Assembly (NCBI RefSeq): GCF_938028735.1
Contig: NZ_CALIMF010000005.1
Coordinates: 62,001 to 126,000, forward strand
DNA: 64,000 nucleotides
Direction: 5' to 3'
From: an uncultured Thermanaerothrix sp.
GTDB lineage: Bacteria > Chloroflexota > Anaerolineae > Anaerolineales > Anaerolineaceae
Below are positions 3,397 through 48,340 of the stretch, piece by piece. The translations under genes were made by a program, and so were the position numbers. The notes beneath the pieces were generated by a model. That model did no database searches and was not told the DNA's origin. It saw only the letters and a program-made list of their open reading frames with translations. Positions within the stretch are counted from its first letter, which is position 1. The number at the start of each line of letters is the position of its first letter.

Positions 3397-3461
3397 ATTT
3401 GGGCAAAATCAAACGCCCAACTCGCTCTGGAAAATTGGAGTGGATTTTCTTTTGCCCAAAT
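3397..3461. repeat. Perfect 12-bp inverted repeat flanking the dnaA-sigma intergenic region
   Basis: ATTTGGGCAAAA at 3397-3408 and its exact reverse complement TTTTGCCCAAAT at 3450-3461, separated by 41 nt. The right arm covers the -35 box of the sigma-factor promoter. The left arm begins just after the dnaA stop. It could be a pair of operator half-sites or an RNA stem in dnaA read-through transcripts. No U-run follows, so a terminator is unlikely. Confidence 0.7.
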
Positions 3462-3480
3462 TCTGGCCTCATGGTATGAT
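3452..3480 (+). promoter_or_regulatory. Sigma-factor gene promoter, leaderless type
   Basis: -35 TTGCCC (3452-3457), 17-nt spacer, -10 TATGAT (3475-3480). The ATG at 3488 starts 8 nt after the -10, at the expected +1, and no Shine-Dalgarno sequence is present. Confidence 0.7.
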
Positions 3481-3487
3481 TTTAACC

Positions 3488-5125
3488 ATGCCACGGGCAA
3501 AAAAGATCTCTCCTGAAGTACGCCCTCAAACCTCCAGAGGGAAAGACAAACCCAAGGCCCAAGGTAGCGCAACCAGTCCTCGCCCGACGCCCCACTTTGA
3601 CGAAACTGAATTACCTGAGGCCTTAGGCGAGGCTGAAGATGAGGAGCTGGTTACCGAACTAGAAGAACCCATTGCAGCCCCTTCCAGCGAGGATTGGGCA
3701 GATCTGGCCCTGGAAGACCCGCTGGAAATTCTAGAGGATCCAGCACTGGCCGCCGAACTTTCGGAAGACCCGGTACGGCTCTATCTGCGCGAAATTGGCC
3801 AAATTGGCTTGTTGGATGCCGACAGCGAGTTCCGCCTGGCCACCTGCATTGAGGCCGATCGGCGCCTAGATGCTCTGCAGAAGCACATTGATGCACGCGG
3901 TAGCGGAAACGGGCGCTACAAAGCCCTCTTCCTGGCCGTTTGCGAGGATTTGCTCACTTCCTGGGAACGCGTCAAGCAAGATGCTGCCCGCTTGGAGAAC
4001 ACCCTTCCCCCCGACCCGCAATTGATGCTGGCCGAGGCACGCCTGCTGCGCCAGACCTGGCAGAGCAAATCCCCCTCCTACGTGCGCTCCTATATGGATA
4101 GCGGCCCCTGGGGACGCGACACATTCTGGGATGGGTTGGTACGCAATGTCTTCAATTTCTTCCTGGATCTCTACCTCCTGCCTGGAGAAGCGGCTGATGC
4201 CCTGACCCAGCACATGGAGAGCGAGAAAGAACTGCCCGATCTGGCCTTTTTCATCTCCTATTTGAACGATGAGGAAGCCCTGCGCGCACAACGCGAGGAG
4301 ATCCATCAGAACGCTGAAGAAGCTAACAACGTGCTGATCCGTGCCAACCTGCGCCTGGTTGTCAGCATTGCCAAGCGCTACCTGGGACGAGGGGTTTCAT
4401 TCCTCGATTTGATCCAAGAAGGCAACCTAGGGCTACTGCGCGCCGTGGCTAAATTTGATCCCACTCGCGGGTACAAGTTCAGCACTTACGCCACTTGGTG
4501 GATCCGCCAATCCATCAGCCGCTACATCGCTGAGCAGGCACGCACCATCCGCATCCCGGTGCACCTCTTTGAGGCCATCACCCGCCTGCTCCGTGTTCAG
4601 CGCTCGCTGATTCAACAACTGGGGCGTGAACCCACTTACGAGGAACTGGCTTTGGAATCGGGGCTACTCAGCGAAGAGGATGTGCAGGCCATCCTTCTGG
4701 CACGCTCACGCAATCAACCCCTCGATCCTGAACTCCAGCGACGGTGGGAAGCCGCAACCACCAAAGTCCAGCGCATCCTCCAATCTGCCGAAGAACCCGT
4801 CTCACTGGAGCGCCCCGTCGGAGATGAAGAAAGCAGTCAACTGGGCGATTTCATTGAGGACGAAGAAGCCCTGGAACCCATGGATGCCGCCGCGCGCGAG
4901 ATGCTACGCCAACAGGTGCAAAATGCACTGGGGGCGCTCACCGAACGCGAGCGTCAGGTGCTGGAATTGCGCTTCGGGTTGATTGACGGCAAAGACCACA
5001 CGCTCGAGGAAGTGAGCCGCTACTTCAACGTGACCCGTGAGCGCATCCGCCAAATTGAAGCCAAGGCTCTGCGTAAGTTGCGCCACCCCACTCGTAGCCG
5101 CCACCTGCGCGAATACCTGACCTGA
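3488..5125 (+). CDS. rpoD: RNA polymerase sigma factor, RpoD/SigA type
   Basis: 545 aa from the ATG at 3488, chosen because a promoter ends 7 nt before it; the open frame extends further upstream but lacks a ribosome site. An acidic N-terminus of about 90 residues precedes region 1.2 ([17 protein letters not shown], about 93). A long non-conserved insert (about 125-270) is typical of primary sigma factors. Region 2 ([38 protein letters not shown]) starts near 282. Region 4 with the helix-turn-helix [17 protein letters not shown] ends the protein. It directs RNA polymerase to the -35/-10 promoters seen throughout the window. Whether it is the only primary sigma factor cannot be told. Confidence 0.93.
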
Positions 5126-5149: not shown

Positions 5150-7372
5150 GTGCGTATCCTGCTGGTACAAAACGATCTCCGCGCTTGTGAGGGGCTGGTG
5201 CGTTATTTACGCAACCGCGGTCATCAGGTAGAGCTCAGCACCCAGCCAAACGATATTCGCACTCAGTGTGCCGCTCTTAACCCGGATCTAGTGTTTTTAG
5301 ATCTTCACTATCCAGGCGAAGTCTGGCTGGAATTACTGCGCTTTTTGCGTCAGGAACACCCTCAAGTGCGCCTTATCCTCACCAGCCGTCACCCTGACCT
5401 GCAACGTGAGATGCAGGCACGGGCCTACGGGGTAAACAACTTCCTGCGCCAACCCTTCACACCGCGCTGGATTGAGGCAGCACTGCGCCGCGCCGAAGGG
5501 GTCGGTGCGGCTACTCAGCCTTCGGCACGCCTCCCCCAGACGCAAGGCCAGGCCAGGGTACGCATTCCGGTTCGTCTCAAAATCATCTTCCCCTATCTCA
5601 TCCTGGGGGTTTTCTTTACCCTAGCAGCGGCTTATGTCGTTACTCGCGTGGTCTTTGAATCAGTCCAGGAACGCTTTCTGAATCAGTTGCTCGGCACCGC
5701 CCAACAGGCTCAGAACTGGCTGGCCAACGAGGAAGACCGGCTCCTTGCAACCCTGCGCCTGGTAGCCAATACGGAGGGGGTAGCCACCGCATTAGAAGTC
5801 AACGATGCCGAAACTCTACGCCTGCGCGTGCTACCCCTGGCCATAAACAGCAACGAAGAAATCGTGGCCCTGATTAACCCCCAAGGGCTTGCCACCTTGG
5901 TCCTGTACCGCTCCGCAGAAAGTCCGCCGGGCGTCTATCAAGCCGTGCGCGAAGATCCCGCTTTTCAGTCGGCCGATTTTGTTCAGAAAGTCTTAGCGGG
6001 GGTAGTGGATACCCAGGGAGATAAATTCGCTGGTCGTCTGCTCACCCCTTGGGGACATTATTTTTTTGTCAGTGGACCGGTCTTCAATACTGAGAATCAA
6101 CGGGTAGGAGTGGTTGTGGTGGGTAAGTCCATCGCCAGCCTGGCCCGCGAGATGCGCGAAGACTTGTTCGGTGAAGCAACGTTCTACGATTTCAACGGGC
6201 AACCCCTGAGTACCACGCTGTATAATGCAACCCCATCGCTTCTGCTTCCTACGGATCAGGTAGCCCAGGTGCTTGGTTACCAGGATCAACAGAGCCTGAG
6301 CCGCACCCTAACGCTGGGCAGTCTCACTTACGGAGAACTCCTCCGCCCATGGGAAGCCCGTGGCGGCGAGGATCTGGGCATCCTTGGAATTGCCCTGCCG
6401 CAAACTTTTGTCCTGCGCACCAGCCAGGCCACTCGTTTGCAGGTGTTCAGCCTGGTTGTGGCGGCCATCTTGCTAGTTGTCCTGATTGGCGTTTACCTGG
6501 CCAACCGCATCACCCGCCCACTGGCCCAGCTAGTACAGGCTTCCGCCCAAGTAGCCCAGGGGAATCTAGAGATCAAGGTCAACCTGCCCGGCAACGATGA
6601 ACTGACCGTACTGGGACATGCCTTCAACGCCATGATTGCCGGTTTACAAGAAGGCTCGATCTACCGCGACCTACTGGGGCGCACCGTCTCGCCGGAGGTG
6701 CGCGAACAGCTGCGTCAGACCTTTGCCTCGGGCAACTTGCGCCTGGAAGGTCAGGAAGCCATCGCCACAGTTTTGATGACTGACATTCGCGGGTTTACTA
6801 CCCTCTCCGAGCAGGTAGAACCGGCGCGCGTGTTGGCTTGGTTAAACGAATACTTTGACCGCTTGGTGCCGATCATCGTTGCAGAGGGAGGTGTGGTCAA
6901 TAAATTCGATGGGGATGCATTGCTGGCGTTTTTTGGCATTCTGCCGCGCATTCTCAGCCCCAAGAAGAGTGCGTTGGCTGCCTGTCGCGCTGCGGTGCGA
7001 ATGCTGGAAGCCCTAGAAGCCCTTAACCGGGAGCGCACTGAACGGGGTGATCCACCCCTGATTACTGGAATTGGAATTAATACCGGAATGGTGATCGCCG
7101 GCGGTCTGGGAGCCCGGGATCGCCTGCACTACACCATTATTGGCGACACGGTAAACACCACCCAGCGCATCGAGGCCCTGACCCGCTCTCTCATCCAGGG
7201 CAGTGGAGCGCTAATCAGCCATACCACCTATACCGCCCTGGGCGAACACGCTCAGGTCTTTAACCTGCAGCCCCTAGGCCTGCAACGGGTGCCTGGTAAG
7301 CAAGAGCCTTTGGAAGTCTACCGCTTGCTGCCCCGACCTTCCGCCGCAGAGGTTCCTGCACTGACACTGTAA
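5150..7372 (+). CDS. Class III adenylate cyclase with N-terminal receiver, membrane sensor and HAMP
   Basis: 740 aa, GTG start with GGAGA upstream. Order: response-regulator receiver (1-125), a transmembrane helix (about 144-166), an extracytoplasmic Cache-like sensor (about 167-428), a second helix (about 430-453), HAMP (about 454-502) and a cyclase domain (about 535-730). In the cyclase both metal aspartates (MTDIRGFT; NKFDGDALLAFFG), the substrate Lys and Thr typical of ATP use (VVNKFDGD; YTIIGDTVN) and the transition-state Asn/Arg (VNTTQRIE) are present, so it should make cAMP. The receiver keeps its acceptor Asp (VFLDLHYPG), but the usual Lys before Pro is Gln (LRQPF), so phosphorylation signalling may be altered. 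It lies close behind the sigma-factor gene on the same strand. Confidence 0.92.
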   Translation: MRILLVQNDLRACEGLVRYLRNRGHQVELSTQPNDIRTQCAALNPDLVFLDLHYPGEVWLELLRFLRQEHPQVRLILTSRHPDLQREMQARAYGVNNFLRQPFTPRWIEAALRRAEGVGAATQPSARLPQTQGQARVRIPVRLKIIFPYLILGVFFTLAAAYVVTRVVFESVQERFLNQLLGTAQQAQNWLANEEDRLLATLRLVANTEGVATALEVNDAETLRLRVLPLAINSNEEIVALINPQGLATLVLYRSAESPPGVYQAVREDPAFQSADFVQKVLAGVVDTQGDKFAGRLLTPWGHYFFVSGPVFNTENQRVGVVVVGKSIASLAREMREDLFGEATFYDFNGQPLSTTLYNATPSLLLPTDQVAQVLGYQDQQSLSRTLTLGSLTYGELLRPWEARGGEDLGILGIALPQTFVLRTSQATRLQVFSLVVAAILLVVLIGVYLANRITRPLAQLVQASAQVAQGNLEIKVNLPGNDELTVLGHAFNAMIAGLQEGSIYRDLLGRTVSPEVREQLRQTFASGNLRLEGQEAIATVLMTDIRGFTTLSEQVEPARVLAWLNEYFDRLVPIIVAEGGVVNKFDGDALLAFFGILPRILSPKKSALAACRAAVRMLEALEALNRERTERGDPPLITGIGINTGMVIAGGLGARDRLHYTIIGDTVNTTQRIEALTRSLIQGSGALISHTTYTALGEHAQVFNLQPLGLQRVPGKQEPLEVYRLLPRPSAAEVPALTL

Positions 7373-9873: not shown

Positions 9874-10076
9874 GCCTTATCCATGCGCTCAGGGGCTTCT
9901 AGAATCAATGCCTTTGCCGCAACGCCACCTTGGATTATCTTTCATAAACATGCTTAAGCCGGGTTACTTATGCCAATTATAGGTGACACAAAAAGGAAAA
10001 AGCAACCTGTGCGAATAAAATCGGGGTAACATTCGTTAATAATGTGGACAAACCCCACAAGTCGAAAGGGCGAGGC

Positions 10077-10652
10077 GTGGAGAGCGCTTTGTTTACCACA
10101 TCCGAGGACGAATTGGTGCACCGCGCCCAACACGGCGACCGCAGTGCTTTTGCCGAACTGGTACGCCGTCATCACGCCCACGTGATCGGTGTGGTTTACC
10201 GCCTGTGTGGTGACCCCCATTTGGCCGAAGATGCGGCACAAGAGGCTTTTGTGCGTGCCTGGCTGAACCTTAACTCCTACCGTCCCCTTATGCCCTGGCG
10301 CAATTGGCTCTACCGTATTGCTGTCAATGTTGCTTTGGACACATTGCGCCGCGAGCGCCATACGTTAGCAATCAACCAGGTGCCAGAGGCACGCGACAGA
10401 CAACCTGACCCACAGGCACTTCTGGAACAGAAAGAGCGCGAGCACCTGGTGCGCCAGGCTATCCTGGCCTTGCCACCAACGACCCGCGCTGTGCTGGTGC
10501 TACGCGAATACGGCGGACTTTCTTACCGCGAGATCGCTGAGGCACTGGATATTCCCCTCGGCACGGTGATGTCACGTCTCAGTACTGCTCGCCAGCGCCT
10601 GCGGGAACACCTGGCGCCCTGGTTGGCCCCTCAGGAGGTACCTTATGAATGA
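10077..10652 (+). CDS. ECF-type RNA polymerase sigma factor
   Basis: 191 aa from the GTG at 10077, chosen for the AAAGGG-N6 ribosome site; an in-frame GTG at 10044 has none. Region 2 is DEAL-like (DPHLAEDAAQEAFVRAWLNL) and region 4 contains LSYREIAEALDIPLGTVMSRL. There is no region 3, as expected for ECF sigma factors. The stop overlaps the downstream zinc-finger anti-sigma gene by 8 bp, so the pair is coupled. It probably directs stress-type transcription of its own operon when released by the anti-sigma. A cognate promoter could not be read with confidence. Confidence 0.93.
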   Translation: MESALFTTSEDELVHRAQHGDRSAFAELVRRHHAHVIGVVYRLCGDPHLAEDAAQEAFVRAWLNLNSYRPLMPWRNWLYRIAVNVALDTLRRERHTLAINQVPEARDRQPDPQALLEQKEREHLVRQAILALPPTTRAVLVLREYGGLSYREIAEALDIPLGTVMSRLSTARQRLREHLAPWLAPQEVPYE

Positions 10653-11280
10653 GCATGTGACTGCTTGGCTAGATGCCTATCAGGACGGAGAACTGCGCCC
10701 CGCTGAACAACGGCGGGTGGAAGCCCACCTAACCGAGTGCTCGACCTGCCGGGAGGAACTTGCCGCCCGCCAGGTCCTGAGCGACTGGATTCGCGGTCTC
10801 CCTAAGGACCTGCCCTTTACCCCCACAGAGCGCTTCACCGCCCAAGTCATGCTCCGCCTCCCGCCTCGCCATACCGCCGCGCCCCAAACTCCCGCCGCCC
10901 TGCTCTGGGGTCTGCCTCTAGGGTTGCTGCTTATCTGCTCTATGCTACAAGCCCTATGGGGGCTGATCGCGTGGTTACGCTTCGGCGTTCAAAGCGGTCT
11001 GCTCGCAGAGGGGCTGCCCAACCCCTTCGTCGGTACAACCCAGAGCCTATGGGTGGCCTTACTCACGGTGCTGGGAGGTGTCTCCCCTTCACCGGTCTTG
11101 CAAACAGCAACACAATGGCTACAACAGACCGACCGCTGGTTTGGCGAGTGGTTGGGGTTACTGACCTGGCAGGCCCAAGTTACGTTGCTCTATTGGGTCT
11201 GGTTGCTGCTGTGGGGATGGCACCAGTATCGAATCCACCCACGGCACCCGGACAAAACGGAAGCCATAAAGTCAGCGTAA
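10645..11280 (+). CDS. Membrane-bound anti-sigma factor with zinc-binding zf-HC2 domain
   Basis: 211 aa. The N-terminal ASD/zf-HC2 signature DGELRPAEQRRVEAHLTECS is followed by CREEL, giving the HxxxCxxC zinc motif (HLTECSTC, about residues 28-35). Hydrophobic stretches follow at about 90-112, 128-145 and 172-195, so it probably sits in the membrane and holds the sigma factor in the cytoplasm. A cytosolic N-terminal zinc domain is usual for this family. The SD is the GGAGG at the end of the sigma gene. Confidence 0.9.
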   Translation: MNEHVTAWLDAYQDGELRPAEQRRVEAHLTECSTCREELAARQVLSDWIRGLPKDLPFTPTERFTAQVMLRLPPRHTAAPQTPAALLWGLPLGLLLICSMLQALWGLIAWLRFGVQSGLLAEGLPNPFVGTTQSLWVALLTVLGGVSPSPVLQTATQWLQQTDRWFGEWLGLLTWQAQVTLLYWVWLLLWGWHQYRIHPRHPDKTEAIKSA

Positions 11281-26840: not shown

Positions 26841-26873
26841 AAAATAAAAATCCCGTCCCAGCCAGGGACGGGG
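26841..26873 (-). terminator. T-box regulated terminator hairpin
   Basis: 8-bp stem CCCGTCCC/GGGACGGG with a 5-nt loop followed by ATTTTTATTTT. The left arm competes with the T-box antiterminator. It lies 15 nt before the pheS ATG. Confidence 0.9.
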
Positions 26874-27168
26874 TTGTGTGCCCGCGGTACCACCCTGATT
26901 GGCTGTGTGGTCACACAGCCCACTCACCCAACGGCCACCCAACGGGTGACGATTGGCGTGCCCGCTAACGGGGGCCAGACGGCTCAGACTACTTACCTGC
27001 GCATGGTAACGCTAGCACGTGGCAGGTTTCACCCGAGCGGCTCGGGAGGGAACTTCGGTCGGTTTCCGGCGAGCTGGGGTCGCAGCCTATGCCCCAGCCT
27101 CTCTGGCGCGTTCTGCCGACTTACTTTCCTCCGTCAGCGCCATTCACTTTTAAGGGTGTCAGAAAATC
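26841..27168 (-). ncRNA. T-box riboswitch, tRNA-Phe specific (pheST leader)
   Basis: The antiterminator signature AGGGTGGTACCGCGG (26896-26882) is exact, and its UGGU bulge would pair with the ACCA end of the tRNA. In stem I the 5' AGTA and 3' GAAG of the loop-E motif flank the specifier codon TTC (27052-27050), a Phe codon, which matches the genes controlled. A terminator hairpin follows. Uncharged tRNA-Phe should stabilise the antiterminator and switch on pheST. Confidence 0.95.
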
Positions 27169-48130: not shown

Positions 48131-48196
48131 TGAGAAACCAAGGCTGCCAGAGCATCGGTTCCCACCTCCTTTCCGCGAGAGGCTGGTGAACCCCTA

Positions 48197-48310
48197 CCGG
48201 GCGGGCGACCTGGCTTAGAGGGCCTTGACCCTCCTCACAGTTGCGGGACAGCACCGGACTTGCACCGGTTTCGCCTTTAAGCCGCTCCATCCGGGGAGAC
48301 AGGCACCCGG
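48197..48310 (-). ncRNA. Cobalamin (AdoCbl) riboswitch
   Basis: On the minus strand the core reads AAAGGCGAAACCGGTGCAAG, then CCCGCAACTGTGA, then the B12 box AAGCCAGGTCGCCCGCC. Flanking CCGGG and CCCGG form P1 (48310-48306 and 48201-48197). These are the conserved elements of the class I cobalamin riboswitch. Bound B12 should favour the terminator downstream and shut off the importer operon. Confidence 0.93.
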
Positions 48311-48340
48311 CAGGTGTTATGAGGTTGTCAAACTGGCATG

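Follow-up and report, generated by a model that had tools for sequence, protein, structure and literature searches.

An N-terminal pseudo-receiver in a putative dCache_3-HAMP receptor adenylate cyclase of Anaerolineaceae

What does a receiver domain contribute to a membrane-bound adenylate cyclase when residues of its phosphotransfer site are altered? This question is raised by a gene in a 64,000-nucleotide (nt) stretch of DNA, hereafter the window, from an uncultured Thermanaerothrix sp. (assembly GCF_938028735.1, contig NZ_CALIMF010000005.1, positions 62,001 to 126,000, forward strand), in which a receiver precedes a membrane-bound sensor, a HAMP domain and a class III cyclase. A first-pass annotation, made from the sequence alone, had left two options for this receiver, namely that it integrates a phospho-signal with an external ligand, or that it is a pseudo-receiver, i.e., a computationally detected receiver without key phosphotransfer residues (as defined in the available text of PMC12632262). 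Pseudo-receivers are common in bacteria, and their switching has been called a mystery (same text, in part).

The gene (Table 1) holds the single match to the Pfam model Guanylate_cyc in its genome (2.62 Mb, 38 contigs, 88% complete). Four Pfam domains scored above their cut-offs in the encoded protein: Response_reg at residues 3-112 (44.9 bits vs. 30.2), dCache_3 at residues 173-421, between two transmembrane (TM) helices (80.1 vs. 25.7), HAMP at residues 450-501 (53.8 vs. 25) and Guanylate_cyc at residues 539-724 (64.9 vs. 21.9). Two hydrophobic stretches, together with a segment (residues 117-146) that has five Lys/Arg but lacks Asp/Glu (hydropathy and charge analysis), point to a topology with the receiver inside and the dCache domain outside. 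A full-length AlphaFold2 model (mean predicted local distance difference test, pLDDT, 79.7) displayed a receiver fold of five strands alternating with five helices and a cyclase fold, as well as a long helix that extends into the sensor. The sensor, which is two-lobed and lies between the TM helices, modelled well when taken alone (pLDDT 90.5; predicted template modelling score, pTM, 0.86). Its best Foldseek matches were double-Cache sensors, such as Tlp3 of Campylobacter jejuni (E 4e-10, TM-score 0.6), and with VIA-align it matched a methyl-accepting chemotaxis protein (Z 17.7, root-mean-square deviation (rmsd) 3.9, 230 residues aligned). The VIA-align list for the full-length model was occupied by cyclase matches, and further families may lie outside that list. 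The closest full-length relative, at 87% identity, is from Thermanaerothrix daxensis GNS-1, and others are found in Longilinea (both Anaerolineaceae, Anaerolineae, Chloroflexota). A chance open reading frame or a frame artefact was ruled out by 16 relatives at 33-87% identity and by the low ratios of nonsynonymous to synonymous substitutions (dN/dS) given below. The reading frame, its coordinates, the domain order receiver-TM-sensor-TM-HAMP-cyclase and an external Cache-like sensor, all put forward in the first-pass annotation, were thus confirmed, the sensor as dCache_3, and the structure prediction suggested there did place a sensor domain between the helices.

Table 1. Positions in the window of the receptor cyclase gene, its encoded domains and the adjoining sigma gene.
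Feature	Residues	Position	Strand	Basis or remark
Putative receptor adenylate cyclase gene	740 residues	5150..7372	+	GTG start; open reading frame call, Pfam, orthologues
N-terminal pseudo-receiver, predicted cytoplasmic	1-116	5150..5497	+	Pfam PF00072, alignments, structure model
TM helix 1 (hydrophobic stretch)	139-172	5564..5665	+	Hydropathy; model helix 139-206
dCache_3 sensor, predicted extracytoplasmic	173-421	5666..6412	+	Pfam PF14827; model; structure matches
TM helix 2 (hydrophobic stretch), runs into HAMP	425-456	6422..6517	+	Hydropathy
HAMP domain	450-501	6497..6652	+	Pfam PF00672
Class III cyclase domain	539-724	6764..7321	+	Pfam PF00211; alignments; structure match
RpoD-like sigma-70 gene, no Pfam region 1.1 match		3440..5125	+	24 nt upstream of the cyclase gene

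Searches in other genomes yielded a set of 35 orthologues, including the window copy. Of these, 27 came from the family (genomes labelled f1, taken as Anaerolineaceae from the taxonomy of the closest relatives of the window protein), one (G056) from a search among relatives and seven from 396 genomes sampled across the class. The set is sharply bounded, since a receiver-alignment search of 147 family genomes gave 27 with a match at E < 2e-36, the next match of any kind being at 9e-18. The scan of relatives reached close relatives only, and its sole locus outside Chloroflexota matched the cyclase part alone.

The active site of a working receiver is made up of five residues, namely two metal-binding acids, Asp, Thr/Ser and Lys (PMC12632262, in part). 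In the window protein the corresponding residues are Gln7-Asn8 at the acid pair, Asp51, Thr78 and Gln101 at the Lys position, so that three residues of the canonical set DD, D, T and K have been lost, namely the acid pair and the Lys. Across the orthologues, the first acid position is occupied by Gln in 33/35 and by Glu in 2/35, the second is non-acidic in all 35, as in about 80% of pseudo-receivers (PMC12632262, in its available portion), and the Lys is missing in all 34 with data. The phospho-Asp is kept in 33/35 (Glu in G013, Ser in G216) and the Thr/Ser in 35/35. This contrasted with other receivers of the window genome: among its 43 receiver matches, the 30 with the best scores (one a shortened match) all retain D/E-D, D and K, although a sample picked by best score leans towards canonical receivers. 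With the second acid and the Lys lost throughout the orthologues and both kept in receivers of the same genome, the degenerate state is no local accident, and the domain is, as judged by its residues, a pseudo-receiver. Loss of the acidic pair leaves the domain with no ordinary metal site, which makes a phospho-signal unlikely. Hence, of the two options in the first-pass annotation, the pseudo-receiver gained support and phospho-signal integration did not; the kept Asp and the Gln in place of Lys had been read correctly, whereas the extent of degeneracy had been understated, the change of the acidic pair to Gln7-Asn8 having been overlooked.

The receiver is under purifying selection and is not decaying. 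Between the window and T. daxensis, the receiver gave a dN/dS of 0.12, the sensor 0.11 and the cyclase 0.05; the respective values were 0.10, 0.09 and 0.07 for G109 vs. G110, and 0.14, 0.17 and 0.09 for G063 vs. G064, while the pair G165/G166 was saturated. Eleven residues were invariant in 24 Anaerolineaceae rows (L4, L16, W59, T78, D83, R86, E87, R100, P102, F103 and W107), with D83, R86, E87, R100, P102, F103 and W107 located on or near the alpha4-beta5-alpha5 face, and the segments of lowest entropy were beta5 and the beta5-alpha5 loop. Over all orthologues, R100 was kept in 31/34 and W107 in 29/34, i.e., not in every outgroup member. Conservation of this face fits dimerisation, protein docking and small-molecule binding alike, and a phosphate-free role of one of these kinds seems the likelier one for the pseudo-receiver.

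With regard to the history of the fusion, a tree of 54 sensor-HAMP stretches placed the receiver-bearing cyclases in one cluster (support 89/97, below the star), with the long-branched G003 outside it and the receiver-less cyclase of G466 nested inside it (93/89). Three changes of the receiver label suffice on this tree, compared with a mean of 17.8 after shuffling, and a single gain of the receiver in evolution is the simplest reading, albeit not a proved one. The orthologues of G028 (L088) and G088 (L080) have intact frames of 483 and 488 residues with receiver, HAMP and cyclase present and dCache missing, indicating that receiver and cyclase can outlive the sensor. In the outgroup family f59, ordinary receiver genes were seen directly upstream of the pseudo-receiver cyclase in 4/5 loci (L177, L178, L179, L180), and the fused receiver may derive from such genes.

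As the first-pass annotation had stated, the window cyclase has a full set of catalytic residues (Asp545, Lys585, Asp589, Thr662, Asn669 and Arg673), which we take to be the two metal-binding Asp, the base-selecting Lys and Asp/Thr, and the transition-state Asn and Arg. The product of the window protein would accordingly be cyclic adenosine monophosphate (cAMP), as far as these residues can tell. Among the 30 orthologues in which all six positions were readable, 19 were intact and 11 changed, eight of the latter at the base-selecting Lys; G003 and G027 are altered at both Asn and Arg, and the nucleotide may differ in G056, whose base-selecting positions are occupied by Glu and Ala. Altered cyclase residues were found together with a retained pseudo-receiver motif in G027 (L013), G003 (L015), G032 (L012) and G056 (L009). 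Regarding possible effectors, a crude pattern for the usual cAMP phosphate-binding cassette was met by 0/7 cyclic nucleotide monophosphate (cNMP)-binding matches from the window genome (two) and T. daxensis (five), and by 7/25 loci from five other family genomes. A 570-residue T. daxensis protein with a cNMP_binding domain and a weak bacterial pleckstrin homology (PH) match comes near this pattern. Open reading frames of 555-570 residues, with a cNMP-binding domain followed by hydrophobic stretches, were read in four genomes (G001, G004, G028 and G031; L231:169-1878 (-) and similar ones in L234, L228 and L235, the weak PH match having been tested on L231 only), and proteins of this type are candidate cAMP effectors.

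The first-pass annotation treated the fusion as a single gene, and conserved neighbours lay outside its coordinates. Directly downstream of the cyclase, a gene for a surface protein was present in 22 of the 30 loci whose sequence continued for 500 nt or more past the cyclase (20 by pattern, and G027 and G216 by reading), the ends of both genes often overlapping. The encoded protein displays one N-terminal TM segment, an 'LPVxLHSxLxADYSADxR'-like juxtamembrane segment, the motif 'TPVPTVTP' and then, usually, a Pro/Thr-rich tail. The short forms tested gave no Pfam match; far longer versions occur in outgroup families, and of the two tested, one had CBM96 and the other Calx-beta plus DUF11. In Anaerolineaceae it often ends in '...YP' (TPGYP, TPYP, TAYP), as seen in L085:2847-3530 (-), L070:7238-7972 (-), L086:2199-2882 (-) and others. 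This partner did not adjoin the cyclase in eight loci (the window, G000, as well as G001, G003, G004, G005, G028, G032 and G088).

In order to be counted here, the matches of a partner-model search in 23 chosen genomes (22 rows in 12 genomes; no match in 11/23) were reduced to 18, by dropping G170:C12 (E 0.007, no motif) and setting aside three model members. Thirteen of the 18 were located directly downstream, on the same strand, of another dCache_3-HAMP receptor, in nine genomes and five genera; six are close copies in genus g8, and the independent cases are therefore fewer than 13. Of these 13 receptors, ten had an HD-type output (confirmed by Pfam for five and by reading for the other five), which we take to be of the cyclic diguanylate (c-di-GMP) phosphodiesterase kind, two had a histidine kinase and one a receiver-less cyclase. 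Among the other five matches, two were copies lying 2.7 and 3.7 kb after the G005 cyclase, and the remaining three, including that of T. daxensis, had no receptor in the fetched stretch. Among 12 dCache_3 receptors chosen by likeness to the window protein, and inspected with flanks of up to 1.5 kb, none had an N-terminal receiver; the partner was directly downstream in five (one of these loci is already counted among the 13), a weak opposite-strand match adjoined two, and no match reached the threshold in five, including L017, which gave a weak match with a longer model. Since the partner adjoins dCache_3-HAMP receptors with other outputs, it appears to be linked to the sensor rather than to the receiver or the cyclase. 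That G028 and G088 lack both dCache and partner is suggestive of linked loss, with too few cases to say more. We read receptor and surface protein as a module with swappable outputs.

On balance, we consider it probable that the window protein is a homodimeric dCache_3-HAMP class III adenylate cyclase receptor carrying a phosphate-independent N-terminal pseudo-receiver. The dCache_3 domain would receive a signal outside the membrane, with the companion surface protein encoded next door probably forming part of the input in many relatives. Movement transmitted via TM2 and HAMP would then reposition the two cyclase domains, thereby assembling the active sites that they share and allowing cAMP synthesis, while the pseudo-receiver, N-terminal to TM1, may dimerise, dock or bind a small molecule and, in this way, tune or place the receptor without phosphate. 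Several observations weigh against this proposal. Asp51 and Thr78 are conserved and are not obviously needed by a pure docking module, which leaves room for residual acyl-phosphate chemistry. In 11/30 orthologues the cyclase has an altered catalytic residue, and neither of the two cNMP-binding matches in the window genome (88% complete) has the usual cassette by the crude pattern, so that no cAMP receptor was identified. The pTM of the full-length model (0.42) implies that the arrangement of its domains is not reliably predicted. Finally, no partner was found beside the window gene or in its genome (partner-model search, E 0.01); because the neighbour of the T. daxensis partner gene finds just a 37% match there, an assembly gap and a loss of the partner look alike.

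Other explanations have to be weighed against the same data. A receiver that still accepts phosphate on Asp51, from an orphan kinase or a small phosphodonor, and gates the cyclase would account for the retention of Asp51 (33/35) and Thr/Ser (35/35), and could be seen as in line with the receiver genes directly upstream of the cyclase in 4/5 f59 loci; however, with both acids and the Lys absent from the window protein, the second acid and the Lys lost in every orthologue with data, and canonical residues in 30/30 sampled receivers of the same genome, we regard it as very unlikely. That the pseudo-receiver is instead a small-molecule sensor, for example of c-di-GMP, on its alpha4-beta5-alpha5 face, and combines inside with outside signals, is unlikely. 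The lowest entropy lies at beta5 and the beta5-alpha5 loop, sister receptors have HD-domain outputs, and the ShkA pseudo-receiver of Caulobacter binds c-di-GMP on that face (according to the accessible parts of PMC7010744 and PMC12632262), but the same face is also a common dimer or partner interface (PMC12632262, in part), and neither R100 (31/34) nor W107 (29/34) is universal. The cyclase, in turn, could be a scaffold that makes no cyclic nucleotide, receptor and receiver being the conserved part. The 11/30 altered orthologues, with G003 and G027 changed at both Asn and Arg, would agree with such a role, as would the lack of a canonical cAMP receptor in the window genome by the crude pattern, whereas the six intact positions in the window and in 19/30 orthologues, and the strong constraint on the window cyclase domain (dN/dS 0.05, like HAMP), render it improbable.

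A further alternative concerns the RpoD-like sigma gene (Table 1), which immediately precedes the cyclase gene, in the same orientation, in all 26 testable Anaerolineaceae loci, the contig ending there in the 27th (G103). It is common for an anti-sigma gene to lie behind its sigma gene, and the receptor might be a membrane-bound regulator whose pseudo-receiver binds this sigma, which, as judged by Pfam, has no region 1.1 match, in contrast to the other large sigma of the genome. Nevertheless, the sigma gene was seen at 0/8 orthologue loci outside the family within the fetched stretch, it is present in 128/147 family genomes as opposed to 27 with the cyclase, and no known anti-sigma domain appeared among the Pfam matches of the receptor. 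Upstream of the sigma gene there is a single protein cluster in 19 genomes, DnaG by Pfam in the one tested (in the window, a gene reading as dnaA), and a cyclase settling into an old dnaG-rpoD operon would explain the gene order. Both the outgroup loci without sigma and the dnaG-like gene before it lower the sigma-binding reading, to which we assign very little probability, and the sigma-cyclase linkage may be a positional feature of one family. Stop-codon read-through fusing sigma to cyclase, which share a frame in the window with one stop between them, was rejected as a general feature because the gaps of many relatives are not multiples of three, although some are.

Coming back to the favoured phosphate-independent receptor cyclase, its cyclase domain resembles those of known enzymes: CyaB of Pseudomonas aeruginosa (3r5g; Z 27.5, rmsd 1.6 over 191 residues, 35% identity, VIA-align), CyaC of Arthrospira (1wc1; Z 27.0 over 189, 30%) and Cya2, titled guanylyl cyclase (2w01; Z 26.6 over 193, 34%). 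At the base-selecting positions, CyaB has the same Lys and Thr as the window protein, whereas Cya2 has Glu in place of the Lys. CyaC carries cytoplasmic receivers. What sets the window protein apart from the three is its input, i.e., an extracytoplasmic dCache_3 sensor with HAMP and an N-terminal pseudo-receiver. Its sensor also resembles the Cache-clan sensor of LuxQ from Vibrio (3c38; Z 15.2, rmsd 3.6, 197 residues aligned). LuxQ works with a separate extra-membrane protein, LuxP; unlike LuxP, the partner described here is membrane-anchored and usually Pro/Thr-rich. Like the window domain, ShkA REC1 and a domain of PleD combine a receiver fold with the loss of key residues (PMC7010744 and PMC12632262, both in part). 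ShkA REC1 lies within a hybrid kinase and the PleD domain is flanked by a receiver and a diguanylate cyclase, while the window domain, with an R/W motif of its own, is placed ahead of TM1 in a receptor cyclase. In a 2016 census, 4 of 883 dCache_3 proteins had a cyclase output, and none was described with an N-terminal receiver in the available portion of that work (PMC4822843). Hence, the union of dCache_3 and cyclase is rare but already known. In the literature searched, whose scope left subscription papers mostly outside, no description was found of this domain order or of the surface partner, nor was a dCache_3 ligand in the literature examined.

Each of the 27 family genomes that carry the pseudo-receiver has one, in a fixed place and fused to the cyclase. 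Owing to this fixed position, the simple enzyme read-out and the natural variants without a sensor (two genomes) or with an altered cyclase (eleven), its role is directly testable, and the adjoining surface protein provides a concrete protein candidate for the input of a dCache_3 receptor. More tentatively, and with rather less confidence than doubt, an Anaerolineae family of dCache_3-HAMP receptors may form, together with a dedicated membrane-anchored surface protein (with the '..ADYS..' segment and a Pro/Thr stalk or large surface domains), a general outside-in module whose inner end is swapped among adenylate cyclase (with or without a pseudo-receiver), histidine kinase and an HD-type enzyme resembling c-di-GMP phosphodiesterases. 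Such a receptor would monitor its own surface protein, namely whether this is present, attached or under strain; in the window gene's branch, the cAMP output would in addition receive an internal, phosphate-independent input through the pseudo-receiver.

Elsewhere in the window, and close to the cyclase, a gene for a sigma factor of the extracytoplasmic function (ECF) type overlaps a zf-HC2 zinc-finger gene of the anti-sigma kind (10044-11280, +; Pfam). Rfam matches were obtained for a T-box leader (26861-27146, -) and a cobalamin riboswitch (48183-48325, -).

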